Origin: Solirubrobacterales bacterium
GTDB lineage: Bacteria > Actinomycetota > Thermoleophilia > Solirubrobacterales > Solirubrobacteraceae
DNA: 32,097 nt
Reading direction: 5' to 3'
Assembly (NCBI GenBank): GCA_025963905.1
Contig: JAOPZW010000238.1
Coordinates: 1-32,097 of the forward strand
Shown here: piece by piece, positions 144-21,832 of the stretch
How positions within the stretch are numbered: the stretch's first letter is position 1
Layout: every line of letters starts with the position of its first letter
Position numbers and translations under genes: made by a program
Notes under the pieces: model-generated
Databases searched by the model: none
What the model saw: the letters and a program-made list of their open reading frames with translations, nothing else
Told to the model about the DNA's origin: nothing

Positions 144-599
144 TCAGCGCGTGACCCAGGACTCCGGCTCGCGCGCGAGCGTCGCGATGCGCTTCGGGAG
201 GCGCCGGTTGGCGAGATCGGCGAGCGTGACGCCCTCGAGGACCGAACGGATGTTGGTCCGCAGCGCGATCCACACGTCCTGCAACGGCTCAGCAGAGCCG
301 ATGTAGTGAATCGATTCCGGCGACTCACCGCGCACGTCGGCGAGCGGGCCTTCGATCGCGCGCAGCACGTCGGCGACTGAGATCTGGTCGGCGGGCCGTG
401 CAAGGCGGTGCCCGCCCTCGCGGCCCCGCTGGCTGACGACCAGCCGGGCGCGGCGAAGCTCGTGGAAGATCTTCTGAAGGAACTGCACCGGGATGTTCTG
501 TCGCGCGGCGACCACCTCGGCCGTCAGCGACTCGTCACCCGCGGTGGCGAGCTCGACGGCGGCTCGGACCGCGTAATCGGCCTTCGCAGAGATGCGCAC
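144..599 (-). CDS. Rrf2 family transcriptional regulator (no cysteines)
   Basis: MRISAKADYAVRAAVELA...IPVQFLQKIFHELRRARLVVSQRGREGGHRLARPADQISVADVLRAIEGPL is the typical Rrf2 winged-helix N-terminus. The C-terminal loop has no Cys ligands. Divergent from the sulfur/flavin genes. Confidence 0.92.
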   Translation of the reverse strand: MRISAKADYAVRAAVELATAGDESLTAEVVAARQNIPVQFLQKIFHELRRARLVVSQRGREGGHRLARPADQISVADVLRAIEGPLADVRGESPESIHYIGSAEPLQDVWIALRTNIRSVLEGVTLADLANRRLPKRIATLAREPESWVTR

Positions 600-645
600 A
601 CCGCCATTCTGTCCGATCCGGTGGCGACCCCGCTGACCAAGCGGA

Positions 646-678
646 TCTGGATGGTATTATCGAGTAAGTTGATCCAGA
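646..678. promoter_or_regulatory. Candidate operator: 7-bp perfect inverted repeat TCTGGAT-N19-ATCCAGA containing TATTAT and TTGATC
   Basis: Read directly in the intergenic region between the divergent Rrf2 gene and the flavin reductase gene. Confidence 0.5.
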
Positions 679-1169
679 ATAGCCACATCTCTGGGGAGCG
701 TCTCCGCCAAGCGATGAGCCACTTCGCCACGGGTGTCGCTGTGGTGACGTCGCGCGGTGCATCCGGCCAGCCCGTCGGCACCACGGCGAACGCCGTCACA
801 TCGCTATCGCTCGATCCCCCCCTGATCCTCGTCTGCTTCGCGCACGCGAGCCAGACGCTCGCTGCGTTGCGCGATCACGGCGCGTTCGCCGTCAACGTGC
901 TCGGCGCCCAGCACCGCGACGTGTCCTCGGCGTTCGCGCGGCGCGGGTCAGACGGCGCGTGGGACGGCATCGACCACCACGCGGGCCACACAGCGAGTCC
1001 GCGGCTGAGCGACGCGCTAGCCACGCTGGACTGCGCCGTCGAGGAGACGTTCCCGGGCGGCGACCATCAGATCGTCGTGGGCCGCGTGCTCGAGATCGAC
1101 GTCAGCGAGCGGGACCGAGAGCCGTTGCTCTATTACCGCGGCGACTACGCGTCGCTCGGGGCGGGATGA
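651..1169 (+). CDS. Flavin reductase-like FMN-binding protein (HpaC/DszD-type)
   Basis: RLRQAMSHFATGVAVVTSRGASGQPVGTTANAVTSLSLDPPLILVCFAHASQTL...FAVNVLGAQHRDVSSAFA is a typical flavin reductase motif series. Start uncertain (ATG 651 keeps the conserved N-terminus; ATG 714 would truncate it). Confidence 0.88.
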   Translation: MVLSSKLIQNSHISGERLRQAMSHFATGVAVVTSRGASGQPVGTTANAVTSLSLDPPLILVCFAHASQTLAALRDHGAFAVNVLGAQHRDVSSAFARRGSDGAWDGIDHHAGHTASPRLSDALATLDCAVEETFPGGDHQIVVGRVLEIDVSERDREPLLYYRGDYASLGAG

Positions 1170-2221
1170 ACAGCGTCGACGCCGCCCGCGAGCGCGTCGG
1201 AGACGACGGCGTCGTGCTCGTCGCGGACGAGCACGACGCGACGGTGTTCGTGGCCGCCGCCGCCGATCGCCTGACCCCCGCCACGCTCGAGGAGCTGTCC
1301 GAGCTGGGCGGCGGCAGGGTGATCCTCGCGCTCGAGGCGCAGATCGCCGATCGCCTCCGGCTCGGAGATCCGGGCCAGGAGCCGCTGCGGCGCGCTGCCT
1401 TGCCCTTCGTCGCGCCGATCGACGCCGCGCGCGGAATCCGCGGTGGCTGGTCGGCGACCGACCGCGCCCTCACGATGCGCGTCGCCGCCGCTCCGGAGAC
1501 CGTGCCAGAGGACCTCGCGATCCCGGGCCACGTGCACCCGGTCCGAATCCGACGTGCGGACCTGGCGGCGGGCGGCGGCGCCGCGGAGGCCGCGCTCGAG
1601 CTCGTGGCTGCCGCGGGGCGCCGAGAGGCCGTCGCGCTGTGCGCGATCGTCGATCGCCACGGGGCTCCGGTGCCGCTCAGCACGGCACGCGACGACCCGC
1701 GCCTGCGCGAGCTTCCGCTCGCGTCGACTGCGGCGCTGCGCGCCGCAGTCGAGGCACAGCGCGCCGAGGCACTCGCGGTGAGCTGTGCGCTGCCTGCCCG
1801 GTACGGCGAGTTTCGCGCCGTCGCCCACGCCGGGACAGATAGCGCCGTCACGCTCGCGATGGTGCACGGCGACATCCCGCCAGGCGCGCGCATCCGTGTT
1901 CACGCGCACACCGCGTGCCTCCTCGGCGACACGTTCGGGTCGCTGCTGTGCGACTGCGGCCGCGAGCTCGACCGCGCCCTCGAATCGATCGTCGCCGAGG
2001 GAGCCGGTGTCGTGCTCTACACGAAGCCCACCACCGCGCCGCCGACGCAGTGCGGGCGCGAAGTGTCCGCCGACATCTCGGCAGCGGCCGGCCTGCTGCG
2101 CCACATCGGCGTGCGGGCGCTGCGGCTTCGCGGCGGGACCGCTGGGCTCGGGCCGGCGCTCCGCAACCTGGGACTCGACGTCGAACAGGAGGACGCGGAC
2201 TTCGTCCGCGCGGCGGCATGA
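1166..2221 (+). CDS. Degenerate RibBA-like protein (DHBP synthase-like plus GTP cyclohydrolase II-like)
   Basis: C-terminal part HAHTACLLGDTFGSLLCDCGRELDRALESIVAEGAGVVLYTKP matches the GCH II zinc-site region, but the following GQEGRGIGL catalytic segment is absent. N-terminal part resembles RibB without the DDEDRENEGD acidic motif. Start ATG overlaps the previous stop. Confidence 0.75.
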   Translation: MNSVDAARERVGDDGVVLVADEHDATVFVAAAADRLTPATLEELSELGGGRVILALEAQIADRLRLGDPGQEPLRRAALPFVAPIDAARGIRGGWSATDRALTMRVAAAPETVPEDLAIPGHVHPVRIRRADLAAGGGAAEAALELVAAAGRREAVALCAIVDRHGAPVPLSTARDDPRLRELPLASTAALRAAVEAQRAEALAVSCALPARYGEFRAVAHAGTDSAVTLAMVHGDIPPGARIRVHAHTACLLGDTFGSLLCDCGRELDRALESIVAEGAGVVLYTKPTTAPPTQCGREVSADISAAAGLLRHIGVRALRLRGGTAGLGPALRNLGLDVEQEDADFVRAAA

Positions 2222-2733
2222 GCGAGTACGGACGAGTTCGGATTGTCGCCGTCGTCGGCAACCCGCGCGCGGCCTCGCGCACGCACGGCATCGCGCGCAC
2301 GCTCGCACGCGAGATGGCGGCCGTCCTCGGCGCCGGCGAGCCCGGGGAGGTCGACCTCGCAACGCTCGGGTCGAAGGTGCTCGAGCGCGAGGACCGCGAC
2401 GCGAGGGCGGCGGTCGAGGAAGTGCTCGCCGCCGACGTGCTCGTCGTCGCCAGCCCGACATACAAGGCCACGTACTCCGGGCTGCTGAAGGCCTTCCTCG
2501 ACCGCATCGGCACCGGGGGCCTGCACCGCACACGAGCCGTGCCGGTACTGCTCGGTGGCGCCCCCGACCACCGCCTCGCCGTCGACGTGCACTTCACGCC
2601 CCTGCTGCTCGAGCTCGGCGCGAGCGTCCCGGCGCGCGGGCTGTTCGTGCTCGAGTCCGAGCTCGACGACTTCGATGTCGCCGCGGCGGCCTGGGCACGC
2701 GACGCACGGGCCGCGCTGCTGGCCGCGAGCTGA
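2218..2733 (+). CDS. NADPH-dependent FMN reductase (SsuE/MsuE-like)
   Basis: VRIVAVVGNPRAASRTHGIARTLAREM...ADVLVVASPTYKATYSGLLKAFLDRIGTGGLHRTRAVPVLLGGAPDHRLAVD is flavodoxin-like FMN reductase; ATGA overlap with the upstream gene. Confidence 0.9.
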   Translation: MSEYGRVRIVAVVGNPRAASRTHGIARTLAREMAAVLGAGEPGEVDLATLGSKVLEREDRDARAAVEEVLAADVLVVASPTYKATYSGLLKAFLDRIGTGGLHRTRAVPVLLGGAPDHRLAVDVHFTPLLLELGASVPARGLFVLESELDDFDVAAAAWARDARAALLAAS

Positions 2734-2814
2734 CGGCGTCCTCGTCGAGGCGGCGAACCCACCGAGGCCGGGGGCCGGCATCGGCGCGCCCCCACTCGAT
2801 CCAATTCAATCGCG

Positions 2815-2852
2815 GGTATAAACCAGACTTTGTTGATCGACTTTGATAACTT
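2815..2852 (+). promoter_or_regulatory. AT-rich promoter/operator element with direct repeat GACTTTG (2826-2832, 2839-2845) and TTGATC (2833-2838)
   Basis: TATAAACCAGACTTTGTTGATCGACTTTGATAACTTG stands out in very GC-rich context upstream of the 2914 operon. Confidence 0.5.
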
Positions 2853-2913
2853 GCGGTCCCGGCGCGCCTCGAGGCCCGCCCCAGACCGTCCCACGTCCCC
2901 CGGAGGCGCACCC

Positions 2914-3729
2914 GTGTCCACGTCCCAAGCCCGCGAGAACCGACTGATCCTCAACGGCGACCCCGCCGGCCGAGCCTGGCGCGAGGCGCCCGTGGCCACG
3001 CTGCCGCTCGCCCGCCGGATCCGCAACGTCTTCAACGGCCGCACGATCGCCGACACGACCAGCGCGCTGATCGTCTTCGAGCACGACCACCTGCCGGTCT
3101 ACTACGTGCCGGAGGCCGACATCGACCTCTCCGCGCTCGTGCCCAGCGACAAGACCAGCACGTGCTCGCGCAAGGGACACGCCGGCTACTGGTCGATCGT
3201 CGTCGGCGACCGCACCGCGCCCGACGCGGTCTGGGGCTACGGCGAGCCGATCGAGGGCGCACCGGACCTGCAGGGCTACCGCGCCTTCTACTGGGACGCG
3301 CTGGACCACTGGTACGAGGAGGACGAGGAGGTCTTCGTCCACGCCCGCGACCCGTTCAAGCGCGTCGACGCGCTGCGCAGCTCGCGACACGTGCGCATCG
3401 AGATCGACGGCGTGACCGTCGCCGAGAGCCACCGCCCGACGCTGCTCTTCGAAACCGGCATCGCCACGCGCTACTACCTCCCGCGCGCCGACGTGCGCCT
3501 CGACCTCCTGCGCCCGACCGAGACGGTCACCGCCTGCCCCTACAAGGGCGAGGCCAACTACTACTCGGCGGTGGTCGGCGACCGCACCGTCGACGACATC
3601 GCCTGGACCTACACCATCCCGATCCCGGAGATCCCGAAGATCGAGCAGCTGGTGGCGTTCTTCGACGAGCACGTGGACACCTACGTCGACGGCGAGCTGC
3701 AGCCCCGCCCGCAGAGCCCGTGGTCATGA
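2914..3729 (+). CDS. Tandem DUF427 domain-containing protein
   Basis: Two DUF427 repeats: ...VYYVPEADIDLSALVPSDKTSTCSRKGHAGYWSIVVGD... and ...RYYLPRADVRLDLLRPTETVTACPYKGEANYYSAVVGDRTVDDIAWTY. GTG start at 2914 with GGAGG upstream preferred over TTG 2830. Confidence 0.85.
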   Translation: MSTSQARENRLILNGDPAGRAWREAPVATLPLARRIRNVFNGRTIADTTSALIVFEHDHLPVYYVPEADIDLSALVPSDKTSTCSRKGHAGYWSIVVGDRTAPDAVWGYGEPIEGAPDLQGYRAFYWDALDHWYEEDEEVFVHARDPFKRVDALRSSRHVRIEIDGVTVAESHRPTLLFETGIATRYYLPRADVRLDLLRPTETVTACPYKGEANYYSAVVGDRTVDDIAWTYTIPIPEIPKIEQLVAFFDEHVDTYVDGELQPRPQSPWS

Positions 3730-5999
3730 GCGGGACGCTGATCGAGAGCGTCCCGGACCCGGGCCCCCCGCCGCTCGACGCCGGGCCGCGGTTGGCGGCG
3801 GTCGAGCCGCCCCGCGAGCGCTTCGTCGCGGCTGACCGCGCCCCCCTGATCGCCGGCCTCGCCGCCGACGGCGCCTTCGCGCTGCCGCTCACGGGCGGCG
3901 GGATCGACTGGAGCGCCGCGGTACGGCGCTTGGACGACGTCGCCCGGCGTTCGCCCGACGTGGCGACGGCGCTGGCCGGCAATCTCGCGGCGGCGGCCGC
4001 CATCGTGCGCTTCGGCGAGGCGCCGCAGCGCGCGGCGGTTCGCCGCGGCGACGCGCTGGCGCTCGCCCGCGCCGATGGGACCGGCGCGCCCGCCGAGGTG
4101 GTGGACGGCACGCTCACCGCCTCCGGGCTCCGCGTCGACCACCTGCTGGATCCGAAGGCCTACCTCCTGGTCGCCCAGCGCGAGGACGGGACGCGTGGGG
4201 CCGTGCTGCTCGCCGCCAACGCTCGCGGCGTGCAGTACGACGGCGCCACCCTGGCCGTTGCCGGCACGCCGGTCGGCACGGCCGAGCTGCTGCCGACCTG
4301 GTCCGAGGAGTGGCTGCTCGGGGTCTCCGCCCTGCTCCATGGCGCGATCGCGCTCGGCCTCGCCGGCGGCCTGCTCGACGACGGCGGTGCCTTCGCCCGC
4401 GAGGATGCCACGCCGTGGCCCGGCCGCACGTACGCGAGCCTCATCCACGACCCGCACGTCATCCGTGGCTTCGGACAGCGCCGGGCCCGGCTCGACGCCG
4501 CTCGCACCGTGCTGCAGGAGGCCGTCGCCGCCTTGACCGCTGAACGCGACGACGCGGTGCTCGCCGCGCTGGCCGCCCAGGCCGAGGCCGCCGACGCCAC
4601 CGCGGAGATCGCTGCGACCCTGCCCGAGTTGCTCGGCCCCGCGGGGACCGACCACGCCCCGCTCTGGGTGGCGACGGAGGCCGCGCGCCGTCATACCCTG
4701 CGCGACCCGATCGCCTGGCGCCACTACGCGGTGGGGCAGCACCTGCTCGGTGCGAGCTGGAGCGATCCGGATCGCACGGGCGAGCTGCCCGAAGTGGCGC
4801 CGGCCGACGGATCCGTCCGCCCGATCACGGGCGATGACGAGGCGATCGCGGTCGCGCGGGCCTACGCGGCACACGCGAGCCTCGAGGCCGGCGACCGCGA
4901 CCGGGACCGCCGCCACGCCTTCGCCGAGCTGGACCTGCTGTCGCGCACGGGCCTCCTGGGCATCACCGTGCCGGCGGCCTACGGCGGGCCGGAGGCCGGC
5001 TGGGCGACGGTGGCCGAGGTCGTGCGCATCGTCGGCGCGGCCGACGGCTCGATCAGCCAGATCCTCCAGCCGCACTTCGCCGCGATCGAGGCGATCCACA
5101 CCGCCGGGACCGAGGCGCAACGGCGCTTCTTCTTCCGCCAGGCGCTGGACGGCGCGCGCTTCGGGAGCGCCAACGGCGAGCGCAACACCAAGGCCGCTGG
5201 GGACATCACCACGCGGCTGGTCCCGACGTTGACGGGCACGTATCGCGTCGAGGGCACGAAGTTCTATTGCACGGGGTCGCTGAGCGCGGACTGGGTCGTG
5301 GTCACCGCACGCGACCCCGCGGGCAGCCGCAGCTCCGCGCTCGTGCACCGCGATGCCGAGCACCTCGACCTTGCTGACGACTGGTCGGGCATCGGGCAGC
5401 GGACCACAGCCAGCGGCACGACGCGCCTGGGCGGCGTCGAGGTCCAGGAGCTCCACGTGCTGGCGATGTGGCGCATGGCCGAGGGCGCGCACCTGTCGGG
5501 CGCCAAGGCCAACCTCGTCCACGCCGCCGTCAACATCGGGATCGGCTTCGGCGCGCTGGCCGCCGGGCGCGACTACATCCTCACGCGCTCGCGGCCGTCC
5601 AAGGACCTCGGGCTCGAGTCGGTCATGGAGGATCCGCATCTCGTCCAGCGCTTCGGGCTCCTGCACGGGCGCCTGCGGTCGGCGCACGGCCTTCTGGTCC
5701 GCGCCGCGGAGGCGATCGACGCCGCCGCGGCCGACCCGAGCCCGGACGCGATCTCGGCCGCAACGATCGCGGTCGCCGAGGCGGAGGCCTACGGCGGGGA
5801 CGTCGCGCTGCAGATCGGCAGCGAGGTCTTCGCCCTGGCGGGCGCCGGCGCCAGCCGCAGCGAGGTCGGCCTCGACCGCTTCTGGCGCGACGTGCGCACG
5901 CACACGCTCCACGACCACGCCGTCTGGAAGTACCACCAGATCGGCGACTCGCTGCTCAGCGGCGCGCAGTACTTCGGCAATCGCCGCAACGTCATCTGA
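3726..5999 (+). CDS. Fused double acyl-CoA dehydrogenase-fold protein; C-terminal half is an SfnB/DszC-like flavin monooxygenase
   Basis: C-terminal half: LLGITVPAAYGGPEAGWATVAEVVRIVGAADGSISQILQPHF...FGSANGERNTKAAGDITTRL...GTKFYCTGSLSADWVVVTARD. N-terminal half ends ARRHTLRDPIAWRHYAVGQHLLGA, parallel to C-terminal VRTHTLHDHAVWKYHQIGDSLLSG. ATGA overlap with DUF427 gene. Confidence 0.85.
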   Translation: MSGTLIESVPDPGPPPLDAGPRLAAVEPPRERFVAADRAPLIAGLAADGAFALPLTGGGIDWSAAVRRLDDVARRSPDVATALAGNLAAAAAIVRFGEAPQRAAVRRGDALALARADGTGAPAEVVDGTLTASGLRVDHLLDPKAYLLVAQREDGTRGAVLLAANARGVQYDGATLAVAGTPVGTAELLPTWSEEWLLGVSALLHGAIALGLAGGLLDDGGAFAREDATPWPGRTYASLIHDPHVIRGFGQRRARLDAARTVLQEAVAALTAERDDAVLAALAAQAEAADATAEIAATLPELLGPAGTDHAPLWVATEAARRHTLRDPIAWRHYAVGQHLLGASWSDPDRTGELPEVAPADGSVRPITGDDEAIAVARAYAAHASLEAGDRDRDRRHAFAELDLLSRTGLLGITVPAAYGGPEAGWATVAEVVRIVGAADGSISQILQPHFAAIEAIHTAGTEAQRRFFFRQALDGARFGSANGERNTKAAGDITTRLVPTLTGTYRVEGTKFYCTGSLSADWVVVTARDPAGSRSSALVHRDAEHLDLADDWSGIGQRTTASGTTRLGGVEVQELHVLAMWRMAEGAHLSGAKANLVHAAVNIGIGFGALAAGRDYILTRSRPSKDLGLESVMEDPHLVQRFGLLHGRLRSAHGLLVRAAEAIDAAAADPSPDAISAATIAVAEAEAYGGDVALQIGSEVFALAGAGASRSEVGLDRFWRDVRTHTLHDHAVWKYHQIGDSLLSGAQYFGNRRNVI

Positions 6000-6039
6000 C
6001 CTTCACCACCCGCCAACCACGAGAAACAAGAACAGGACC

Positions 6040-7644
6040 ATGCACGCACGCAACAGAACGGACTCACGCTTCCCCCGCCGCCGACCGGCGGTGCTGGGCC
6101 TCGTCGGCGTCACCGCCACCCTGGCGCTGGCCGCGTGCGGCTCGACCAGCTCGGGAGGCTCCAACAACAACGATGCCACCGCGGCGTCGGCGACCCCGGT
6201 GGCCGACAAGATCGTCAAGGGCGGCACCCTGACCGTCAGCGGCGTCGACCCCGGCACCGCGGTCGACCCGCTCACCACCGCCAGCCCGGCCGGCACGGGC
6301 ATCGTGGCAGCGGTGGCCGAGCAGCTCACGCGGATCGCCGCCGACGGCAGCGCCCAGCCGGTGCTCGCCGACAAGTGGTCGGTCTCCGGCGACGGCAAGA
6401 CGTGGACCTTCCACGTCCGCCAGGGGGTCACGTTCCAGGACGGGACGCCGCTGACGCCCAAGGACGTCGTGGCGTCCTACGACCGCATCATCGCGCCCAA
6501 GAGCCCGTCGCCTGGCAAGTCCTCGTTCGCCGGGCTGCTCAAGGACGTCATCGCGGCGGCCGACGGCGAGAGCGTCGATTTCCACCTGGCGCGCCCGTTC
6601 TCCGACTTCCCGGCGCTGACCGCCGGCAGCAACACCTACATCCTGCCCGCCGACTACAAGGCCGGCAGCTGGGAGAAGCACCCGGTCGGCACCGGTCCGT
6701 TCGTGGTCAAGCAGTACAGCCGCGGCCAGTCGGTCCACTACGAGGCCAACCCGAGCTACTGGGACAAGGCCCACCTCTATCTCGGCGCGCTGGACTTCAA
6801 GCTGTACAAGGACGCGCAGGCCCGCGTGCTGGCCCTGCAGAGCGGCGAGATCGACTCGCTCATCGGCGAGCCGGTCGAGGCCAGCCTGACCGCGGCGCTC
6901 GACCCGTCGAAGTTCGAGGTGGCGACGGTGCCCAACGCCGGGTTCACGGCCTTCGCCTTGCGTGCCGACCAGGCGCCGTTCGACGACGTCAAGGTGCGGC
7001 AGGCGATCGCGTGGGCCCTGGATCGCGAGGGCATCGTCAAGACGGTCCTCGGCGGCGCCGGAACGCTCGGCAACGACACGGTCTACGGGCCCGTCTACCA
7101 GATCAAGCCGCGGGGCCTGGCACAGCGCCAGCAGGACCCGGCGAAGGTCAAGGAGCTGCTGGGCGGCAAGACCGTGTCCTTCACGATCACCGCCAGCCCG
7201 GCAGACGAGACGCTCGCCACGGTCATCCAGCAGCAGCTCAACCAGGTCGGCGGCTTCAAGGTCAAGATCAAGATCCTGCCGAGCTCGGAGTACTACGCCG
7301 ACGGCAACGACGCTCCGTGGCTCAGCGCTCCGGCGACGCTGACCTACTGGGCCAGCCGCCCATCGCCGTCGCAGTACAACAACTTCCTGTACTTCAAGTC
7401 GTCCGACTGGAACGCCTCGAAGTACTCGAACCCCGAGCTGGAGAAGCTCTCGGCGCAGTACGACGCGACGACCGACCAGGCCAAGCGCCAGGAGCTCGTC
7501 GACCAGATCGCCAAGATCGAATACGACGAGGTTCCGGTGATCGTGCCGGCGTTCGGCAAGAGCAAGACGTTCTCGTCCAAGAAGGTGCACGGCCTGCACC
7601 TGCTGCCGAGCAGCACGCTGTACACCGGCGTCTGGGTGGGCTGA
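6040..7644 (+). CDS. ABC transporter substrate-binding lipoprotein, family 5 (peptide/nickel type)
   Basis: Lipobox LALAACGS; ...LADKWSVSGDGKTWTFHVRQGVTFQDGTPLTPKDVVASYDRI...HPVGTGPFVVKQY...VRQAIAWALDREGIVKTVLGG is the SBP_bac_5 signature. Confidence 0.94.
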   Translation: MHARNRTDSRFPRRRPAVLGLVGVTATLALAACGSTSSGGSNNNDATAASATPVADKIVKGGTLTVSGVDPGTAVDPLTTASPAGTGIVAAVAEQLTRIAADGSAQPVLADKWSVSGDGKTWTFHVRQGVTFQDGTPLTPKDVVASYDRIIAPKSPSPGKSSFAGLLKDVIAAADGESVDFHLARPFSDFPALTAGSNTYILPADYKAGSWEKHPVGTGPFVVKQYSRGQSVHYEANPSYWDKAHLYLGALDFKLYKDAQARVLALQSGEIDSLIGEPVEASLTAALDPSKFEVATVPNAGFTAFALRADQAPFDDVKVRQAIAWALDREGIVKTVLGGAGTLGNDTVYGPVYQIKPRGLAQRQQDPAKVKELLGGKTVSFTITASPADETLATVIQQQLNQVGGFKVKIKILPSSEYYADGNDAPWLSAPATLTYWASRPSPSQYNNFLYFKSSDWNASKYSNPELEKLSAQYDATTDQAKRQELVDQIAKIEYDEVPVIVPAFGKSKTFSSKKVHGLHLLPSSTLYTGVWVG

Positions 7645-7648
7645 GCGA

Positions 7649-8860
7649 GTGGGCCCGACCCATCGGACCGTCTCCCCGGCGGAGGTGCGCGAGCGCCTCC
7701 GCGCGGGAAGCGAGCTGGCGCTGCTCGACGTCCGCACCCTCGAGGAGCACCGGGCCGGGCACCTGTTGTGGGCGGCGCACGTCGCCCCCGATCAGCTCGA
7801 CCGGGTGCCCGCGCTCGTGCCGCGCAGGGCCACGCCGATCGTCCTCGCCGAGGTGGCCGCCGACCGGGCGGCCACCGTGGCCGGCGAGCTCCACGCCCGG
7901 GGCTACTCGAACGTGTCGGTGCTGGCCGGCGGCAACGCCGGGTGGGTCGCCGACGGCGGCGCGCTGCACGCCAAGCTGTGCGTCCCGAGCAAGGGACTGG
8001 CCGAACAGGCGCGGCGCGTCTACGAGACCCCGGAGGTGTCGGCCGAGGAGCTGGCGGCGCTCCAGGACGGGCCCGCCGGCCCCCCGCTCGTCCTCGACGT
8101 CCGTACGGCGCCGGAGTACGCGCGCGGGACGATCCCGGGTGCGGTGAGCTGCCCGGGCGGAGAGCTGGTGCTCCGCGCCTTCGACCTCGTCGACCCGGAC
8201 CGGCCGGTCGTCGTCACGTGCGCCGGGCGGACACGCGCGATCTTCGGCGCGCAGTCGCTGATCGACGCCGGCCTGCCCAACCCGGTGTCGTTCCTGACCG
8301 GCGGCACGTCGGCGTGGACGGCGAGCGGCCGGGCGCTCGAGGTGGGCGCGCAGCGCCTGGCGCCCGAGCCGGGTCGTGCCGGCGCTGCGCTGGCACGTGA
8401 GGCCGCCGGCCGCCTGGCGGAGCGCTTCGCGCTGCGGATCGCCGACCGCGCCGGCCTCGTCGCGCTCCTGGCCGAGGCGACCGACCACACGACCTATCTC
8501 ATCGACCCGCGCACGCCGGCCCCGCCGACCGCGCACCCGCTGGCCCGCGCCGTCCCGGCCGGTCAGCTCGTGGAGGCCGTCGACGAGTTCCTCGGCGTGC
8601 TCGGCGCCCGGGTGGTGCTGCTCGACGACCCGCCGTTCACGCGCGCCGTCCCGATCGCCCGCTGGCTCGAACAGCTCGGCACCTTCGACGTCATCGTGGC
8701 GGCGGCGTCCGACGCCCCCGACCTGGCCGGCGATCCCGCCGCACCGCCGGTCGCCTTGGCCGGAGCCGAGGACGTCGAGGCCTGGAGCATCGCGCTCCCC
8801 GACCGCCTGGCGAGCGAGCCCGGCGTCGCCTTCCGCCACTTCCCGGCCCTCGTCGCGTGA
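7649..8860 (+). CDS. Multi-domain rhodanese-like sulfurtransferase
   Basis: LALLDVRTLEEHRAGHL...NVSVLAGGNAGW and LVLDVRTAPEYARGTIPGAVSCPGG...VVVTCAGRTRAIFGAQSLIDAGL are rhodanese domains, followed by a third degenerate one. Confidence 0.88.
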   Translation: MGPTHRTVSPAEVRERLRAGSELALLDVRTLEEHRAGHLLWAAHVAPDQLDRVPALVPRRATPIVLAEVAADRAATVAGELHARGYSNVSVLAGGNAGWVADGGALHAKLCVPSKGLAEQARRVYETPEVSAEELAALQDGPAGPPLVLDVRTAPEYARGTIPGAVSCPGGELVLRAFDLVDPDRPVVVTCAGRTRAIFGAQSLIDAGLPNPVSFLTGGTSAWTASGRALEVGAQRLAPEPGRAGAALAREAAGRLAERFALRIADRAGLVALLAEATDHTTYLIDPRTPAPPTAHPLARAVPAGQLVEAVDEFLGVLGARVVLLDDPPFTRAVPIARWLEQLGTFDVIVAAASDAPDLAGDPAAPPVALAGAEDVEAWSIALPDRLASEPGVAFRHFPALVA

Positions 8861-12694: not shown

Positions 12695-13812
12695 GCATCG
12701 AGCTCCGTTCCTGGATCAACCCCCAGCCCTACGCGTTCGGCCTGTCGACCAGCGGCATCGACCGTCAGGCCGAGTACTTCAGCGCCGACCAGCCCGTCGT
12801 CTCCGTCGATCCGGTGCACATCGCCGCCGAGGCGCGCGAGTACGAGGCCAGCGGCTACGACTCGTCGATCATCCCGCAGAGCGCGTCGTGGCCCGACGTC
12901 TTCACGGTGGCCACGTGGGCACTCGCACACTCGCAGCGCCTGAAGCTGATCGCGGCCCACCGTCCCGGCGTGACGGCGCCGGCCGCCGCGGCCCGGGCGC
13001 TGGCCACCGTCGATCGCCTCTCGGGCGGTCGCGCGAGCGTCCACATCATCATGGGCCACCACGATCGCCAGGCTGACGGCGACCTGCTCGACCAGTCCTC
13101 GGTCTACGCGCGGGCGGGCGAGTACCTCGAGATCTTCAACCGCACGCTCGTCGAGCCCGAGCCCTTCGACTTCAAGGGCGACTTCTACGAGGTGCGCGGG
13201 GCATGGTCGGGCATCCGTCCCGTCCAGGCGCCGCGCCCCGTGCTCTCGCTGCCCGTCGGCTCGCCTCAGTCGATCGAGCTCGCCGCGCGCCATGCCGACG
13301 TCTTCGCCATCCGCGGCCAGACCCTCGACGAGGCCCGCGACCTGCTGGAGACGGTGCGAACCGCCGCCGACCGCCAAGGCCGTGAGCTGAAGGGCTGGGG
13401 CAACTTCAACGTCATCGTCGGTACCACCGACGACGAGGCCTGGGCGCGCGCCCGAGCGATCGAGACCGCCGCGCGAGCACTGGCCGAGCACCGAGCGCGC
13501 ACGCGGCCGCCATGGCGGCCCGACTTCAACGACGGGCGGCCTAAGCCCTATCCCGACGGCCCCGACGTCCGCGACCGCGCGCTGTTCGTGGGGCTGTCGC
13601 GACTGACCGGGACCGAGGTCGCGTTCGTGGGCTCCCCGACGACCGTCGCCGACGCGGTCCTCGAGTACCACGACCTCGGGATCGAGATCTTCACCCTGGG
13701 CAGCCACGTCACCAACCCGGTCGAGGAGGAGGCGCGGCGTGAGCTGCTGCGCCTGCTGCACGCCGCCGGTGCGGCACGGGAGCAGATCGCCGCCGTCGGG
13801 GGGGCGCACTGA
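12691..13812 (+). CDS. LLM class flavin-dependent oxidoreductase, alkanesulfonate monooxygenase (SsuD)-like
   Basis: [66 protein letters not shown] closely follows SsuD-type sequence; ATGA overlap with the ABC ATPase. Confidence 0.9.
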
Positions 13813-15140
13813 TGCCTCCGCCCCCGCTGCACTTCAACGCCTTCATCTGGCCCAACGGCTACCACGAGTCGGGCTGGCGGGTCGTCCCGGACGAGGCGCG
13901 CGGCGTGCTCGGCCTGCCGTACTACGCCGGGATCGCCCGGACCGCGGAGCGCGGCCTGCTCGACTCGGTGTTCCTGGCCGACAACATCGCAATCCCCGAG
14001 TACCGGGTCGAGCATCTGCCGCAGACGCAGTTCGACCCGATCTTGGTCCTCTCCGCCCTGGCCGGCCTCACCGAGCGGATCGGCCTGATCGGTACCGGGT
14101 CCACGACCTACAGCGCGCCGTGGGACCTGGCGCGGCGCTTCGCGACGCTCGACCACCTCAGCGCCGGGCGCGCGGGATGGAACATCGTCACGACCGGGTC
14201 GCCGCTCACTGCTGCGAACTTCGGCCTCACCGAGCACCCATCGCACGCAGACCGATACGCGCGTGCACACGAGTTCGTCGACGTGGTCCAGCGAGTCTGG
14301 GACGGATGGGAGGACGACGCCGTCGTCGGCGACAAGGCGGGGGCGTGGGCCGACCGCTCCAAGATCCACGCGCCGAGGTTCCACGGTGAGCACTACGACG
14401 TGGAGGGCATCCTCCCGTTTCCGCGCTCCCCCCAGGGCCACCCCGTGCTGGTGCAGGCCGGCCAGTCGCCGGCGGGGATCGCGCTGGCCGCGCGCTATGC
14501 CGAGCTCGTGTTCTCCGGGCCGCCGTCGCTGGAGGCGGCCGTGGAGTTCCGCCGCAAGCTGCACGCGCAGGCGATCGCCGGGGGCCGCTCGGCCGATCAG
14601 CTCAAGGTGCTGCCGGCGCTCACGTTCACGCTTGCGAGCACGGAGGCCGAGGCCAAGGACAAGTCCCAGCGCCTCGAGGACCTCGCCAGCCCCGAGTTCC
14701 GCTGGCAGAACCTGCTGTACGTGACGGGCCATGACCCGGACGACTTCGATCCCGACGTGCCCTTCCCACAGGAGCTCCTCGACGGCCCCGCGCCGACGAG
14801 CGGCGGCGAGCGGCTGTACGCCGCGGCGCGCGAGCGGCGGATCCCGCTCCGCGAGCTGGCGCAGGACCTGATCGGCGGCGCCTCGCAGATCCCGTTCGCC
14901 GGCACACCCGAGCAGCTGGCGGACTACATCCTCGCGTGGCACGACGCCGGCGCGATCGATGGGTTCACGCTCATGGGGACCACGCTGCCCTACGAGCTGG
15001 AGACGTTCGTCGACCACGTCGTGCCGATCCTCCAGGCGCGCGGGCGGTTCCGCACCGGGTACGAGGGCGCAACGCTGCGTGACCACCTCGGCCTGAACCG
15101 CCCGGCCGGGCACCAGACCGGGGTGGCGAGCCGTGCCTGA
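13812..15140 (+). CDS. LLM class flavin-dependent monooxygenase, NtaA/SnaA/DszA family (paralog 1)
   Basis: IGLIGTGSTTYSAPWDLARRFATLDHLSAGRAGWNIVTTGSPLTAANFGLTEHPSHADRYARAHEFVDVVQRVWDGWEDDAVV is diagnostic of NtaA/SnaA/DszA. Confidence 0.94.
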   Translation: MPPPPLHFNAFIWPNGYHESGWRVVPDEARGVLGLPYYAGIARTAERGLLDSVFLADNIAIPEYRVEHLPQTQFDPILVLSALAGLTERIGLIGTGSTTYSAPWDLARRFATLDHLSAGRAGWNIVTTGSPLTAANFGLTEHPSHADRYARAHEFVDVVQRVWDGWEDDAVVGDKAGAWADRSKIHAPRFHGEHYDVEGILPFPRSPQGHPVLVQAGQSPAGIALAARYAELVFSGPPSLEAAVEFRRKLHAQAIAGGRSADQLKVLPALTFTLASTEAEAKDKSQRLEDLASPEFRWQNLLYVTGHDPDDFDPDVPFPQELLDGPAPTSGGERLYAAARERRIPLRELAQDLIGGASQIPFAGTPEQLADYILAWHDAGAIDGFTLMGTTLPYELETFVDHVVPILQARGRFRTGYEGATLRDHLGLNRPAGHQTGVASRA

Positions 15141-16460
15141 GCGCCAGTTGCACTTCAACGTCCTGGTGATGGACTCGGGCTATCACGAGTCGGCCTGGCG
15201 GGTGCTCGAGGCCGACCCGCGTGCGGTGCTCGGCCTCGGCCACTACGCCGCGATCGCGCGGATCGCCGAGCGCGGTCTGCTCGATTCGCTGTTCTTCGCC
15301 GACTACCCGGGACTGGCGGAGTTCCGCGTGGAGTTCATGCCCCAGCCGCACTTCGACCCGATCGACCTGGTGTCGGCGCTCGCGCCGCTCACCACCCACA
15401 TCGGGCTGATCGCCACGGGCTCGACCACCTACAGCGCACCGTGGGACCTCGCGCGGCGCTTCGCCTCGCTGGACTTCCTCAGCAAGGGCCGCGCGGGGTG
15501 GAACGTCGTGACGACGGCGACCGCCGTCGCCGCCGCCAACTTCGGCACGGCGGCCCACCCTGACCCGGCCGCGCGCTACGCGCGGGCCGACGAGTACGTC
15601 GACGTCGTGCAGCGGGTGTGGGACGGATGGGAGGACGAGGCGCTCGTCGCCTCACGCGAGAGCGGCGTCTGGGCCGACCGCAGCCGCCTGCACCCGCCCG
15701 GGTTCCACGGCGAGCACTTCGACGTCGCGGGGATCCTGCCGTTCCCGCGCTCGCCGCAGGGGCATCCGATCCTGGCCCAGGCGGGCTCGTCGCCGGCCGG
15801 CATCGCGCTGGCCGCCAAATACGCCGATGTCGTCTTCACCGCGCAGCCGAATGTCGACGAGGGCGTCTCGTTTCGCCGCGAGCTGCGCGCTCAGGTCTCC
15901 GCCTCCGGCCGCTCGCCCGACGCGCTCCACGTCCGCCCGGCATCGCGTTCGTCCTGGGATCGACGGAGGCCGAGGCGCAGGAACGCCGGGACGAGCTCGA
16001 AGGGCTGGCGAGCTCCGAGTTCCGGTGGCGCAACCTCCTGCACCTGTCGGGGCTGAACCCTGACGGCTTCGAGCCCGACGCGCCGCTGCCCGCGGAGCTG
16101 CTCGCGGGGCAGGCGCCGACGAGCACCGGCGAGCGCGTCTTCGCCATCGCCCGCGCCGAGGGCATCGCGCTCCGCCAGATCGCCGATCGCTTCGCGGTCC
16201 TGCCCGGCCAGCACGAGTTCACCGGCACCCCCGAGCAATTCGCCGACGCCATCGCGGAGTGGTGGCACGCCGGCGCCGCCGACGGCTTCACGCTGCTGCC
16301 GACCACGCTGCCGCGCGAGCTGGAGACGTTCGTCGACCACGTGATCCCCATCCTCCAGCGGCGCGGACTGTTCCGCACCGAGTACGCCGGCACGACGCTG
16401 CGCGAGCACTACGGCAGCCCTCGACCCGCGAACCGCAACACGGTGGCCGCGCATGCCTGA
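15133..16460 (+). CDS. LLM class flavin-dependent monooxygenase, NtaA/SnaA/DszA family (paralog 2), apparent frameshift near 15938
   Basis: ORF 15133-16056 matches paralogs to LHVRPA, then continuation GIAFVLGSTEAEAQERRDELEGLASSEFRWRNLL lies in the next frame (ORF 15618-16460). One missing G at CCCGG(G)CATC restores it. Confidence 0.88.
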
Positions 16461-17781
16461 TCGCCCCGTCCACCTCAACACCTTCATCTCCGCCTCGGGC
16501 TACCACGAGGCGGCCTGGCGCGTCCAGGACAACGACCCGAAGGCCGTCCTCGCCGTCGATCACTCCGTGCACGTCGCGCGCGTCGCCGAGCGCGGGACGT
16601 TCGACTCGGTGTTCTTGGCCGATAGCCCGGGTGTCGACGAGTTCCGCACGCAGTTCCTGCCGCAGGCGGCCTTCGACCCGATCCAGGTGATCGCCGCGGT
16701 CGGGGCGGTGACCGAGCGCGTCGGCCTGATCGCCACCGCGTCGACGACCTACGGCGCGCCGTGGGACCTCGCCCGCCGCTTCGCCTCGCTGGACTTCCTC
16801 AGCGGCGGCCGCGCGGGCTGGAACATCGTCACGACGCGGATCCCGGGCGTGTCCGCCAACTACGGCCACCTCCACCACCCGGCTCACGCCGACCGCTACG
16901 CGCGGGCGACCGAGTTCGTCGAGGTCGTCCAGCGCGTCTGGGACGGCTGGGCCGACGACGCGGTCGTGGCCGACAAGGCCGCCGGTGTCTGGGCCGATCG
17001 CTCCAAGCTCCGCGCTCCCGACCATCACGGCGAACGCTTCGACGTCGCCGGCGTGCTGGGCTTCCCGCGCGCGCCGCAGGGCCATCCCGTGCTCGTCCAG
17101 GCCGGCTCGTCGCCTGCCGGGATCGACCTCGCCGCGCGCTTCGCCGAGCTCGTGTTCATCGGCCAGCCGAGCGTCGACGAGGCGGTCGCGTTCCGTCGGC
17201 GCGTGCACGACCGCGCCGCGTTCTACGGCCGTCCCGCGGACGCAGTGCGGATCCTCCCGGCACTGCCGTTCATCCTGGGGTCGACCGAGGCCGAGGCGCA
17301 GGGTCGGCGCGCGGCGCTGGAGGCCACCTCCAGCTCGGAGTTCCGCTGGATCAACCTCGCGGCGATGACCGAGATCGGCGTCGACGAGCTCGATCCCGAC
17401 GAGCCGCTGCCGGCGCGGCTGCTCGACGAGGGCCCGCGCACGTCGATCGCCAAGACGGTCTATGACATCGCCCGCCGCGAGCGCTCGACGACGTTCCGCG
17501 AGCTGGGCCTGCGGTTCGCCGTCCGGCCGGGCGCGCTGGACTTCACGGGCACGCCGGAGCAGCTCGCCGACCTCATCGAGACCTGGTGGCGTGCGGGCGC
17601 GGCCGACGGCTTCACGCTCATGCCGATGGTCCTGCCACGCGAGCTGGAGGACTTCGTCGACCACGTCGTGCCGATCCTGCGCCGCCGGGGCGTCGCCCGT
17701 ACCGAGTACGCGGGCACCACGCTACGCGACCATTACGGCCTCGCCCGGCCGGCCCGGGCGCCCCTCCGGCACGCCGCCTAG
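16453..17781 (+). CDS. LLM class flavin-dependent monooxygenase, NtaA/SnaA/DszA family (paralog 3)
   Basis: VGLIATASTTYGAPWDLARRFASLDFLSGGRAGWNIVTTRIPGVSANYGHLHHPAHADRYARATEFVEVVQRVWDGWADDAVV; intact, 442 aa. Confidence 0.94.
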   Translation: MPDRPVHLNTFISASGYHEAAWRVQDNDPKAVLAVDHSVHVARVAERGTFDSVFLADSPGVDEFRTQFLPQAAFDPIQVIAAVGAVTERVGLIATASTTYGAPWDLARRFASLDFLSGGRAGWNIVTTRIPGVSANYGHLHHPAHADRYARATEFVEVVQRVWDGWADDAVVADKAAGVWADRSKLRAPDHHGERFDVAGVLGFPRAPQGHPVLVQAGSSPAGIDLAARFAELVFIGQPSVDEAVAFRRRVHDRAAFYGRPADAVRILPALPFILGSTEAEAQGRRAALEATSSSEFRWINLAAMTEIGVDELDPDEPLPARLLDEGPRTSIAKTVYDIARRERSTTFRELGLRFAVRPGALDFTGTPEQLADLIETWWRAGAADGFTLMPMVLPRELEDFVDHVVPILRRRGVARTEYAGTTLRDHYGLARPARAPLRHAA

Positions 17782-17785
17782 CAGC

Positions 17786-19537
17786 GTGAAGCAGAGATCG
17801 GAGGGCGCCTGGCGCCTCCTCTGGTGCTGGTCGCGCCCACAGGGGCGCGAGGTGGGCTGGGCATTCGCGATGGGCATGGTCTGGTCCTTGACCGCGGTGG
17901 CCGTGCCGCTCGTCGCGCGCCGGGGCGTCGACTCGGCGGTGGCGGGCGATCACGCTGGCGCGCTGCTCGCGCTCACCGGCGCGCTGCTGCTGCTCGCAGC
18001 GTTGAAGGCCGGCGCGCTGCGCATCCGCCGCTACCTCGTCTTCACCGCATCCGCGCGCGTCGCCGGGCGGCTGCGCAGCCAGATGTTCGCGCGGCTGCAC
18101 GCGCTGGACGCCGGCTACCACGAGAGCACCACCAAGGGCCGCCTGCTCGGCTCCCTGTCGGACGACACCCAGCAGGTCGAGCAGTTCGGCGTCTCGATCC
18201 AGGTGTTGATGAACAACTTCGTCTGGGCCGCGCTGATCGCGATCGCGCTCGTGGCGCTGGATCCCGGCCTGGCCCTGCTGGCAGGCCTGCCGCTCCCGCT
18301 CGTGCTCGTGGCCTCCCGGCGCTTCACCGTGATGCTGGGACCGCCGACCGACCAGGTGCGGGGCACGACGTTCGCGCTCTCCTCGGCGGCGACCGACGTC
18401 ATCGACGGCATCGCCGTCGTCAAGGGTCTGGGCAGCGAGCGCCATCACCTCGCGGGCTACCGCGGATACAGCGCCCGGCTGTACGACGAGGCGATCGCGG
18501 CATCCGACATCCGTGCCTGGTACGCGCCGATGATCGAGTCGCTGCCGTCGGTGAGCCTCGTGCTGGTGCTCCTGGTCGGCGGCCTGAAGGTGGCGGACGG
18601 GACGATGTCGCTGGGCGACTTCACCGCGTTCAACTCCTACGTGGTGATGGCGGTGTGGCCGCTGCGGTTCACGGGCGTGATCGTCGGCCAGGCGTCGCGC
18701 GCGCGGGTGGCCGTGGAGCGTATCGACGAACTGCTGCGCGCGCAGCCGACGGTGGAGGCGCCGGCCGCCGCCGCTCCCGGGGCGCGCGGGGGAGCCGTGG
18801 CCCCGCCGGCGCTCGACTTCCACGCCGTGCGCTTCGGCTACGACCCCGAGGTCGCGGTCCTGGACGGCCTCGAGCTCCACGTCGCGCCCGGCGACCTGGT
18901 CGCGATCGCGGGCTCCACCGGGTCGGGCAAGTCGACGCTGGCCAAGCTGCTGACCCGCGTCTACGACGTGCAGGCCGGCACGGTCGCCGTCGGTGGCCAG
19001 GGCGTCCGCGACTGGGATCCGGCGGCGCTGCGCTCGGCGGTGTGCGCGGTGCTCGACGACAGCTTCCTGTTCTCGCGCTCGATCCGCGACAACCTGCTCC
19101 TCGCGCGTCCCGACGCCAGCGCGGAGCAGCTGGACCGGGCCGCGCGGCTGGCCGCGCTGCACGACGTGATCGCGGCGCTGGACGACGGCTGGCACGCGAC
19201 GGCCGGCGAACGGGGGACTCGCCTGTCGGGCGGCCAGCGCCAGCGCGTTTCGATCGCACGAGCGCTGCTGGCCGGCTCGCGCGCGCTCATCCTCGACGAC
19301 GTGACCAGCGCGCTGGACGCCCAGACCGAGCGTCAGCTCGTCGCCGCGCTGCCCGAGATCCGTCACGGGCGCACGGTCCTCGTCGTCAGCGATCGCGCGC
19401 CGGTCCTGGCCGCCGTCGACCGGGTGATCCTGATCGACGACGGCCGTGCGGTCGACGAGGGCTCGCACGCGCAGCTCCTCGCCCGCTCGGAGCGCTACCG
19501 CCGGCTGCTGTCGGGCCCGCTGGAGGCGGCGGTCTGA
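17786..19537 (+). CDS. ABC transporter, fused permease/ATP-binding half-transporter (type IV exporter subunit 1)
   Basis: TM region followed by GSTGSGKSTLAKLL, LSGGQRQRVSIARALLAGSRALILDDVTSALD; Walker B ends in D rather than E. Confidence 0.92.
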   Translation: MKQRSEGAWRLLWCWSRPQGREVGWAFAMGMVWSLTAVAVPLVARRGVDSAVAGDHAGALLALTGALLLLAALKAGALRIRRYLVFTASARVAGRLRSQMFARLHALDAGYHESTTKGRLLGSLSDDTQQVEQFGVSIQVLMNNFVWAALIAIALVALDPGLALLAGLPLPLVLVASRRFTVMLGPPTDQVRGTTFALSSAATDVIDGIAVVKGLGSERHHLAGYRGYSARLYDEAIAASDIRAWYAPMIESLPSVSLVLVLLVGGLKVADGTMSLGDFTAFNSYVVMAVWPLRFTGVIVGQASRARVAVERIDELLRAQPTVEAPAAAAPGARGGAVAPPALDFHAVRFGYDPEVAVLDGLELHVAPGDLVAIAGSTGSGKSTLAKLLTRVYDVQAGTVAVGGQGVRDWDPAALRSAVCAVLDDSFLFSRSIRDNLLLARPDASAEQLDRAARLAALHDVIAALDDGWHATAGERGTRLSGGQRQRVSIARALLAGSRALILDDVTSALDAQTERQLVAALPEIRHGRTVLVVSDRAPVLAAVDRVILIDDGRAVDEGSHAQLLARSERYRRLLSGPLEAAV

Positions 19538-21290
19538 TGGCGCGCTCCTGGACGGAGCCCGAGCGCCGCCACCTGCGGACGCTGCTGGCCGGGCAGCGCT
19601 GGCCGCTGGCCGCGCTCGCAGCGCTGCTGGCCGCCACGACCGCGTCGGTGCTCAGCGGCCCCGCGCTGATCGGGATGGGCGTCGACGGCGCGCTCGCGCA
19701 TGGCGGCCACGCCGGGCTCTACCTCGCCGCCGGCCTCTACCTCGCCATCAGCATCGCCGGCTGGCTGGCCACCGTCGTGCAGCTGCGGCTCTTCGGCCGC
19801 ATCACCGAGCGCTTCCTGCTGCGCCTGCGCGAGGCGGCGTTCGAGCACCTGCTCGGCCGCTCGCCGGCCTACTTCGAGGCGACGCCCTCGGGAACCCTGA
19901 TCACGCGGCTGACCGCGGACGTCGAGGCCGTGGCCACCTTCTTCCGCACGGGCCTCATCCCGCTGGTGACCAACGTCATCGTGCTGCTGGCAACGATGGT
20001 GTTCATGGCGGCGCTTTCGCCTTCGCTGTTCGCGATCGTCTTCGTGTGCGTCGGGCCGATCGCCGCCGGGCTGTTCGTGGTCTTCCTGCGGCGCTCGCGA
20101 CGCGCCTACGACGTGGCTCGCCTGCGGATCAGCGACGCGATGGGCGTGCTCAGCGAGGGCGTCGCCGGCATCGCCGTCGTCCGGGCCTTCGGGGCGGAGG
20201 AGCGCCAACGCCGGCACTTCGACGAGGCCAACGACGCGCAGGTCGGGGCGCTGACGAAGGCCAACCGCATCGGCGCGCAGTTCGCCGCGGTCGTCGACTT
20301 CGCCGGCGTGGCCGCCTTCGTGCCGGTCCTCGCCGGCGGTGCGTGGCTGTACGCGGGCCACCACGTCTCGATCGGGACCGTCGTCGCGTTCGTCGTCTAC
20401 GTCAGCGCGGTGTTCGACCCCGTCCAGCAGATCGGGCAGTTCCTCGGCCAGGCGACGTCGGCGCGCAGCGCGTTCGCCAGCCTGGTCGGTCTGCTGGAGG
20501 TCCGCGACGCGCTCGACCGGTGCGGTACCGGCGCCGCGGTCCCAGCGCGCGGCGCCGTCGTGCTCCGGACCGTTGGATTCGGCTACCCGCGCGGCGACCG
20601 CGAGGTGCTGTCGGGCTTCGACCTCGAGGTGCCGGCGGGGCAGCGGGTCGCACTCGTCGGTCGCAGCGGCGCCGGCAAGACACGGTCGCCAGGCTGATCG
20701 CGCGCACGGTCGACCCGGAGCGTGGCCAGGTGCTCTTCGGTGGCGTCGACCTGCGCGAGATCGAGTTGGAGGACCTGCGCCGCCGGATCGTCCTGGTCAG
20801 CCAGCACGCGCACCTGTTCCAGGGCACGGTGGCCGACAACGTCCGGCTCGGCCGCCCGGGCGCAGGTGACGAGGAGGTGCGCGCGGTCCTCGAGACGCTG
20901 CTGCCGGCCGGCGTCGTGTCCGAGCTGCTGGCGGGCCACGGCGGCGCGCTGGGCGGGCTCGCGCCCGCGCTCTCGGCGGGCCAGCGCCAGGTGGTCTCGC
21001 TGGCGCGAGCGCTCCTGCTCGACCCGGCGGTGCTGGTGCTCGACGAGGCGACCGCGCAGGTGGATCCATGGACGGCGGCCGCGATGGAGCGGATGCTCGA
21101 CCGCGCCGGCGTGGGGCGCACCACGATCGTCGTGGCCCACCGCGTCGCCACAGCGGAGCGCCTGGATCGCATCGTCGTCATCGACGACGGCCGGATCGTC
21201 GACGACGGCGCACCGGCCGAGTTGCTGCGCGACGGCGGGGCCTATGCCCGCCTGCGGGAGGCGATCGACGGCCAAACCACCGATTCTTGA
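19537..21290 (+). CDS. ABC transporter, fused permease/ATP-binding half-transporter (type IV exporter subunit 2), apparent frameshift in Walker A near 20681
   Basis: MARSWTEPERRHLRTLLAGQRW...VALVGRSGAGKT breaks; TVARLIARTVDPERGQVLFGGVDLREIELEDLRRRIVLVSQHAHLFQGTV...LSAGQRQVVSLARALLLDPAVLVLDEATAQVD continues one frame over. Confidence 0.88.
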
Positions 21291-21306
21291 TCAGATTTGT
21301 ATAGTT
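21287..21306 (+). promoter_or_regulatory. AT-rich promoter/operator element TTGATCAGATTTGTATAGTT
   Basis: Overlaps the stop of the exporter gene and precedes the TOBE-like gene; resembles TTGATCGACTTTGATAACTT at 2833-2852. Confidence 0.45.
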
Positions 21307-21367
21307 TCACGACGATGCCGAACTTCTCTCCCCCTGACCGGACGACGGCGACCGACAAGGAGCCGGC

Positions 21368-21667
21368 ATGTCGACGCTCGCCGCTCGCCCTCGCAGGTCA
21401 GCCCGCGTTCCGGTAGCGATCATCGACCCGCGCGAGCGCGGGCAGCGCGAGGGGGCGATCGAGCGGATCGAGCACCGAGCGCGGCGCGTCGACGTCAGGC
21501 TCGTGCTCGACGACGGCACGCGGGCCGAGGCCTGCCTCGCGCCCGTGGAGGCCGAATGGCTCGACCTTCGCCCGGGGGACATCGTCTGGGTGCGGCCGCT
21601 GGACGTGCTGCCGCTCTGCGACGGGCCGGGCGGGTCGTCGCTGCGGACGCTGTCGCTCAGCGGCTGA
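21368..21667 (+). CDS. Small standalone TOBE-like domain protein
   Basis: GAIERIEHRARRVDVRLVLDDGTRAEACLAPVEAEWLDLRPGDIVWVRPLDVL resembles the C-terminal TOBE-like domain of CysA/molybdate ATPases; AGGAG upstream of ATG. Confidence 0.65.
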   Translation: MSTLAARPRRSARVPVAIIDPRERGQREGAIERIEHRARRVDVRLVLDDGTRAEACLAPVEAEWLDLRPGDIVWVRPLDVLPLCDGPGGSSLRTLSLSG

Positions 21668-21832
21668 GGCGGGCTCGTCCTTCTGGGCCAGGGTCGTGAT
21701 CCGCTTGGGGCGGGCGCTGTTGTCAACTTGCCGTTCGCGGCGCCTGTTCTTCGAGCGCGATCGCGGTGGCGTAAAGCCGGTCAGTGCAACCTCGACGGCT
21801 GGGTAAGCCTGTGTTCCAGGGCCTTTTCGCGA

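Follow-up and report, generated by a model that had tools for sequence, protein, structure and literature searches.

A predicted organosulfur scavenging operon with a degenerate RibBA paralog in a Solirubrobacterales bacterium

We analyzed a 32,097-nucleotide stretch of DNA from a soil actinobacterium, a Solirubrobacterales bacterium of the family Solirubrobacteraceae (GenBank assembly GCA_025963905.1, contig JAOPZW010000238.1; hereafter, the window), which is an entire contig of a 4.7 Mb assembly with 512 contigs. The gene block at positions 144-21290 is likely, as the best explanation of the whole, to be an organosulfur scavenging operon in which a degenerate paralog of the flavin-biosynthesis enzyme RibBA serves as a non-catalytic partner of a flavin reductase (Table 1). 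Organosulfur uptake and desulfurization, originally predicted from the sequence alone, is well supported by the SfnB membership of one monooxygenase and by orthologs of the Rrf2 regulator located beside CysT and CysA.

In the proposed mechanism, the CymR-like Rrf2 protein would control the operon, and the family-5 ABC importer would bring in an amino-acid- or peptide-like organosulfur compound. The SfnB/DszC-type enzyme, judging by its family, would oxygenate sulfur; the NtaA/DmoA-type enzymes, relatives of YtnJ/CmoJ and DszA, would cut C-S bonds; and the SsuD-like enzyme would free sulfite. All of the monooxygenases would take FMNH2 from two dedicated reductases, while the rhodanese would handle sulfane sulfur. 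Beside the reductase, the RibBA paralog, for which motif loss, linkage and fusion are observed, may hold or deliver flavin or sense the flavin state.

Monooxygenases and the Rrf2 regulator

The strongest single-gene evidence for sulfur is the SfnB membership of the protein encoded at 3729-5999, a 756-aa fusion. Its C-terminal half scored 469 bits against a TIGR04022 equivalog cutoff of 430.9, in agreement with the SfnB/DszC-like monooxygenase of the original prediction, and the nearest solved relatives of this half are DszC and MsuC. The N-terminal half (3729-4790) can be aligned over its length with SfnBs (23-29% identity). Missing from this half are two segments found in other SfnBs, which in this fold contribute to flavin binding; no match to it was found in 146 genomes of the family. 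The DszC equivalog of the Dsz 4S pathway (NF043015) gave 224 bits against a cutoff of 850, and no DszB desulfinase is among the annotated genes of the block, a dedicated search for it not having been made.

Two of the three predicted NtaA/SnaA/DszA-like monooxygenases (13812-15140 and 16453-17781) are intact and scored 476 bits each, above the TIGR03860 subfamily cutoff of 279.7, while the third (15133-16460) is frameshifted as assembled. Their nearest solved relatives are 3sdo, annotated as a nitrilotriacetate (NTA) monooxygenase, YtnJ/CmoJ and DszA; as evidence for sulfur, the NtaA/DmoA-type enzymes alone are ambiguous. The block could be read as a catabolic cluster for nitrogenous chelators of the NTA or ethylenediaminetetraacetate (EDTA) type, with NtaA-like enzymes cleaving C-N bonds and the importer carrying chelates, given that 3sdo is the best solved match of the two enzymes, that an EDTA monooxygenase is also listed, and that the importer's binding protein is similar to nickel- and peptide-binding ones. 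Nevertheless, YtnJ and DszA match both enzymes nearly as well as 3sdo, and neither SfnB nor a rhodanese nor an Rrf2 protein with sulfate-importer-linked orthologs would be expected in such a cluster, which makes a chelator pathway improbable. Riboflavin catabolism by an RcaE-type riboflavin lyase was set aside, since the YtnJ, DszA and NtaA-type relatives score higher.

Support for sulfur that is independent of the enzyme families comes from the neighborhoods of Rrf2 genes. The window's Rrf2 regulator, recognized in the original prediction and recovered here with PF02082, contains no cysteines and is not an Fe-S sensor. The presence of the domain, the absence of Fe-S cysteines and a fitting neighborhood are compatible with a CymR-like protein, whose control of sulfur genes is predicted. 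Rrf2 matches were obtained in 87 of the 146 family genomes, and seven regions were inspected. In one of them (L157), the Rrf2 neighbors are CysT, CysA and a sulfate-binding protein (149.9 bits, just under the cutoff of 155.5), and in another (L158), Rrf2 adjoins CysT; the CysT and CysA proteins of the Rrf2-linked regions exceed curated cutoffs. The second Rrf2 gene of the window's own genome (G000:C1, L159 120-1864), whose product is 60% identical to that of the window, adjoins a CysA-type sulfate importer ATPase. The location of these relatives at sulfate import genes fits a sulfur regulon. Two further Rrf2 copies are located with an NtaA-type monooxygenase and MetN/MetQ-like genes (L155; both below cutoffs) and with a flavin reductase and a transporter gene resembling that of L155 (L161).

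Upstream of the monooxygenase-linked Rrf2 genes (window positions 600-700, L155 and L161), we observed AT-rich stretches with weak common elements and, in the window, a 7-bp inverted repeat at 646-652/672-678. These are possible candidates for an operator; a shared operator was sought upstream of Rrf2 genes, and no motif was demonstrated.

The block has SfnB, SsuD/MsuD-like and NtaA/DmoA-type enzymes and a dedicated reductase in common with the two-component FMN monooxygenase systems of sulfur starvation (SfnB/MsuC/DszC, SsuD/MsuD and SsuE/MsuE reductases), such as that of dimethyl sulfide assimilation in Acinetobacter baylyi (PMC13352529), from which it differs in having a family-5 importer rather than SsuABC, three genes of the NtaA/DmoA type, the RibBA paralog and a degenerate SfnB-like domain fused to SfnB. 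With the ytm/yxe salvage of cysteine S-conjugates in Bacillus subtilis (YtnJ/CmoJ, YxeK; PMC10863075, PMC9706529), it shares NtaA/DszA-type C-S monooxygenases, YtnJ being among the two nearest solved relatives, whereas the N-acetyltransferase and deacetylase steps are not among the annotated genes of the window, and SfnB is present in it. Six loci of relatives (L031, L032, L033, L038, L064 and L106) draw, in differing combinations and gene orders, on SfnB, a family-5 importer, SsuD-like and NtaA-type monooxygenases and flavin reductases of the same kinds. The importer/SfnB/NtaA-type combination thus recurs in Solirubrobacteraceae. The operon extends organosulfur scavenging to this largely uncultured family, for which its type is ordinary; the new part is the RibBA paralog.

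A degenerate RibBA paralog beside flavin reductase genes

Two-component flavin monooxygenases need free reduced flavin, and how bacteria supply FMNH2 to them without losing it to oxidation is a practical question still to be answered. Both flavin reductases of the original prediction are present, one of the PF01613 family (651-1169), whose ATG at 651 was picked to fit homolog length, and one SsuE/MsuE-like (2218-2733). The RibBA paralog located between them is apparently enzymatically dead, to judge from its motifs. In an alignment with eight canonical RibBA proteins, it lacks the 3,4-dihydroxy-2-butanone 4-phosphate (DHBP) synthase motifs DDEDRENEGD and GHTEA; its GTP cyclohydrolase II (GCH2) domain has lost the block from EGRGIGL to DxRDY but retains the zinc cysteines. 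In E. coli RibA numbering, the deleted block contains Y105, D126 and R128. The paralog scored 163 bits against 569 for the RibBA equivalog NF006803, and a canonical RibBA copy is present elsewhere in the same genome. A search of PHROGs with the paralog gave no match. Its AlphaFold model (predicted local distance difference test, pLDDT, 81.5) has the RibBA fold, and its third structural match is 6mnz.

Using a profile of the truncated domain on 232 genomes of the order, we distinguished two separate populations: ten genes that match nearly the full profile with 153-225 bits, and canonical genes that match mostly at positions 3-89 with ~85-105 bits. Sampling more widely, with 399 genomes from the class and 397 from the phylum, added few further cases. 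A flavin reductase gene lies within a flank of at most 1.5 kb, or is fused, in 8 of the 10 truncated loci, as compared with 2 of the next 20 canonical-type matches (hypergeometric ~3e-4, computed by hand on loci that are related and hence non-independent). The remaining two truncated loci are that of G119, which lies at the end of a contig and next to an SsuE-type reductase, and that of the cultured relative Solirubrobacter soli DSM 22325 (L064), whose operon joins importer, monooxygenase, reductase and truncated RibA genes, the reductase lying ~6.4 kb away within that row. One genus includes three genomes in which the truncated domain and a flavin reductase form a single protein; for one of these, Pfam confirms both domains. 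Outside the main group, the truncated domain of G493 adjoins flavin reductase, SsuE-like and luciferase-type genes.

In a tree of the 90 shared residues, ten proteins, nine from Solirubrobacteraceae and one from an Acidimicrobiaceae metagenome-assembled genome, are grouped in one clade (support 100/98). The proteins of S. soli, G493 and G490 have long branches, and the tree does not decide between a common origin with the main clade and a separate one. All ten clade members carry an extra cysteine 11 or 12 residues past a conserved tyrosine, which was seen in none of the canonical proteins with a readable segment. The automatic placement of this tyrosine was wrong for L108, which was read by eye, and for L052 and L121, which show an ordinary EGRG segment.

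The loss of catalytic motifs, together with two frameshifts in one operon, could mean that the RibBA paralog, like the frameshifted genes, is a functionless remnant in decay. This seems a poor account of the paralog, because the same truncated form with its extra cysteine is kept with open reading frames across several genera, and the ratio of nonsynonymous to synonymous substitution rates (dN/dS, mainly by NG86) between three close relatives is 0.22-0.24, which places the truncated RibBA of those relatives under purifying selection.

According to a second alternative, the paralog would still be an enzyme, one that provides the FMN-dependent enzymes with more riboflavin. In G055 and G170, second RibBA copies that retain their motifs are indeed located beside flavin reductases, and they suggest that recruitment may at first have served to supply flavin. 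Direct adjacency of this kind was observed at L112 (2828-4111) and L115 (8950-10374), the latter also being next to an NtaA-type monooxygenase, and partly degenerate RibBA copies were observed at L109-L111. However, in the window protein, the motifs of both active sites are absent and the GCH2 block is deleted, and RibA1, a related protein of mycobacteria, does not take the place of RibA2 (PMC11302143); we therefore regard a retained enzymatic function as unlikely.

Most likely, the RibBA paralog is a non-catalytic reductase partner that holds or delivers flavin, or senses its state via a Cys-rich zinc site; this role in flavin handling is suggested by its linkage and fusion to the reductase. 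We also put forward, as a tentative idea that may well prove wrong, that the truncated proteins constitute a family of their own, whose members would be accessory subunits of PF01613 reductases that have no catalytic activity and probably bind zinc, and which would store, channel or meter FMN/FMNH2 for C-S cleaving monooxygenases and would have arisen from a recruited second RibBA in which a fourth zinc-site cysteine replaced the active site. A flavin-biosynthesis enzyme that has apparently lost its activity, yet is conserved and recurs next to a reductase (as a fusion in one genus), is a testable candidate for a delivery or sensing component.

RibBX and RibA1 are partial precedents. The proteobacterial RibBX (6mnz; PMC10012899) is also RibBA-shaped with a non-functional GCH2-like domain, but it is still active as RibB, with an X domain devoid of zinc-binding residues, whereas the window paralog shows the reverse, having lost the RibB motifs and kept the zinc cysteines, and thus is not a RibBX. 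The mycobacterial RibA1 (Rv1940) is likewise a second RibBA-like gene, with neighbors that are not sulfur genes; it falls outside the well-supported clade of the window protein on a long branch of undecided position. A similar degenerate RibBA, with its own downstream cysteine, is located in G490 (L122 3255-9907) in a row with luciferase-type monooxygenase, ferredoxin/oxidoreductase-like, epoxide-hydrolase-like and short-chain dehydrogenase/reductase (SDR) genes, an arrangement that resembles the Mycobacterium tuberculosis RibA1 neighborhood, Rv1936-Rv1941. The window paralog may therefore help to ask what role RibA1-like proteins play in other actinobacteria. Within the literature searched, we found no paper that places a gene for GTP cyclohydrolase II in monooxygenase clusters of the alkanesulfonate or sulfur-starvation type.

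Several observations weigh against an organosulfur operon with a functional RibBA-type partner. The SsuD-like monooxygenase, although present as predicted, scored 152.6 bits, far under the TIGR03565 equivalog cutoff of 518.2, and is therefore labeled only as SsuD-like; cleavage by NtaA-type enzymes extends to C-N bonds. The block as assembled contains two frameshifted genes, the third NtaA-type gene by a one-base deletion at ~15918 and the second exporter gene by a one-base deletion at ~20683, for both of which real decay and an assembly error are equally likely. In the model of the RibBA paralog, the zinc loop and the segment with the fourth cysteine have pLDDT values below 50, too low for a judgment on the proposed Cys4 site, and the dN/dS comparisons of the window paralog itself (0.46-0.59) are too distant to inform.

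Gene order, transport functions and flanking region

Table 1. Annotated features of the gene block and the gene immediately downstream
Feature	Position	Strand	Evidence
Rrf2-family regulator, cysteine-free	144-599	-	PF02082, 119.9 bits
Flavin reductase	651-1169	+	PF01613, 150 bits
Degenerate RibBA paralog, DHBP synthase and GCH2 domains	1166-2221	+	PF00926/PF00925
SsuE/MsuE-like FMN reductase	2218-2733	+	TIGR03567, 87.8 bits, under cutoff 164
Double DUF427 protein	2914-3729	+	PF04248, 209.8 bits
SfnB-like degenerate domain (N half, to ~4790) fused to intact SfnB-type monooxygenase (C half)	3729-5999	+	TIGR04022, 469 bits
Family-5 solute-binding lipoprotein	6040-7644	+	PF00496, 262.9 bits; nearest solved 5u4o
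Two-domain rhodanese, Cys (CAGRTRA) at active-site position of second domain	7649-8860	+	PF00581, 101.4 bits
DppB-type permease	8857-9831	+	PF00528/PF19300
DppC-type permease	9828-10748	+	PF00528, 99.9 bits
Fused DppD-DppF ATPase	10745-12694	+	Two ABC_tran and two oligo_HPY stretches
SsuD-like FMNH2 monooxygenase	12691-13812	+	TIGR03565, 152.6 bits; nearest solved SsuD 1m41, MsuD 7jv3
NtaA/DmoA-type FMN monooxygenase	13812-15140	+	TIGR03860, 476 bits; nearest solved 3sdo, YtnJ, DszA
NtaA/DmoA-type monooxygenase, frameshifted at ~15918	15133-16460	+	Two frames, 65% and 58% identical to preceding gene product
NtaA/DmoA-type FMN monooxygenase	16453-17781	+	TIGR03860, 476 bits
ABC exporter half-transporter 1 (membrane and ATPase)	17786-19537	+	PF00664/PF00005
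ABC exporter half-transporter 2, frameshifted at ~20683	19537-21290	+	PF00664 in one frame, PF00005 in another
Small TOBE-domain protein, candidate operon member only	21368-21667	+	PF03459, 27.1 bits

Based on Pfam and NCBIfam, the genes at 651-21290 form a tightly packed row on the forward strand, with the Rrf2 gene divergent on the reverse strand. Stop and start codons overlap at 1166/1169, 2218/2221, 3729, 8857/8860, 9828/9831, 10745/10748, 12691/12694, 13812, 15133/15140, 16453/16460 and 19537. A very long operon, as originally inferred from such overlaps, is plausible as a single predicted unit of 651-21290. The row has a gap of 180 bp ahead of the DUF427 gene (2733-2914) and one of 40 bp ahead of the binding protein gene (5999-6040). 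The original gene list was mostly right, having missed the RibBA paralog, the double DUF427 protein, the SfnB-like fusion domain and the two frameshifts; its description of the locus as self-contained was overstated, with two genes frameshifted as assembled.

The Dpp-type importer was identified as postulated, with an SBP_bac_5 binding protein, two BPD permeases and oligo_HPY ATPases (SBP5-DppB-DppC-DppDF, 6040-12694), DppD and DppF being joined in one chain. The step from a peptide-type importer to a larger or more varied substrate has little force, since the same importer accompanies SfnB and NtaA-type genes in several other loci of the family; as the usual companion of such enzymes, it is by itself no sign of an unusually large substrate. 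The family-5 relatives listed for the binding protein include nickel, opine and heme carriers. The rhodanese-like protein was confirmed as a two-domain form.

The block is closed by a pair of ABC half-transporters, which agrees with the exporter predicted except that the second gene is frameshifted as assembled. An exporter in this position would suit a gene cluster that makes a natural product and pumps it out; nevertheless, no synthetase, polyketide synthase, transferase or ligase is among the annotated genes of the block, an importer is present, and the sister clusters have no convincing exporter counterpart, so that such a cluster is very improbable. The rhodanese, DUF427 and TOBE genes also lack convincing counterparts in the sister loci compared.

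Rfam and tRNA scans of the window gave no matches. Past the operon, near 21.7 kb, the G+C content drops from ~0.73 to 0.65 (21700-32097), possibly marking an island boundary or an assembly junction. This region encodes an APH-type kinase, a phage-integrase fragment, a LysR protein, an alpha/beta hydrolase, a DUF427 protein and an SDR; DUF427 proteins are thus found near both ends of the window, double at 2914-3729 and single at 28969-29376.

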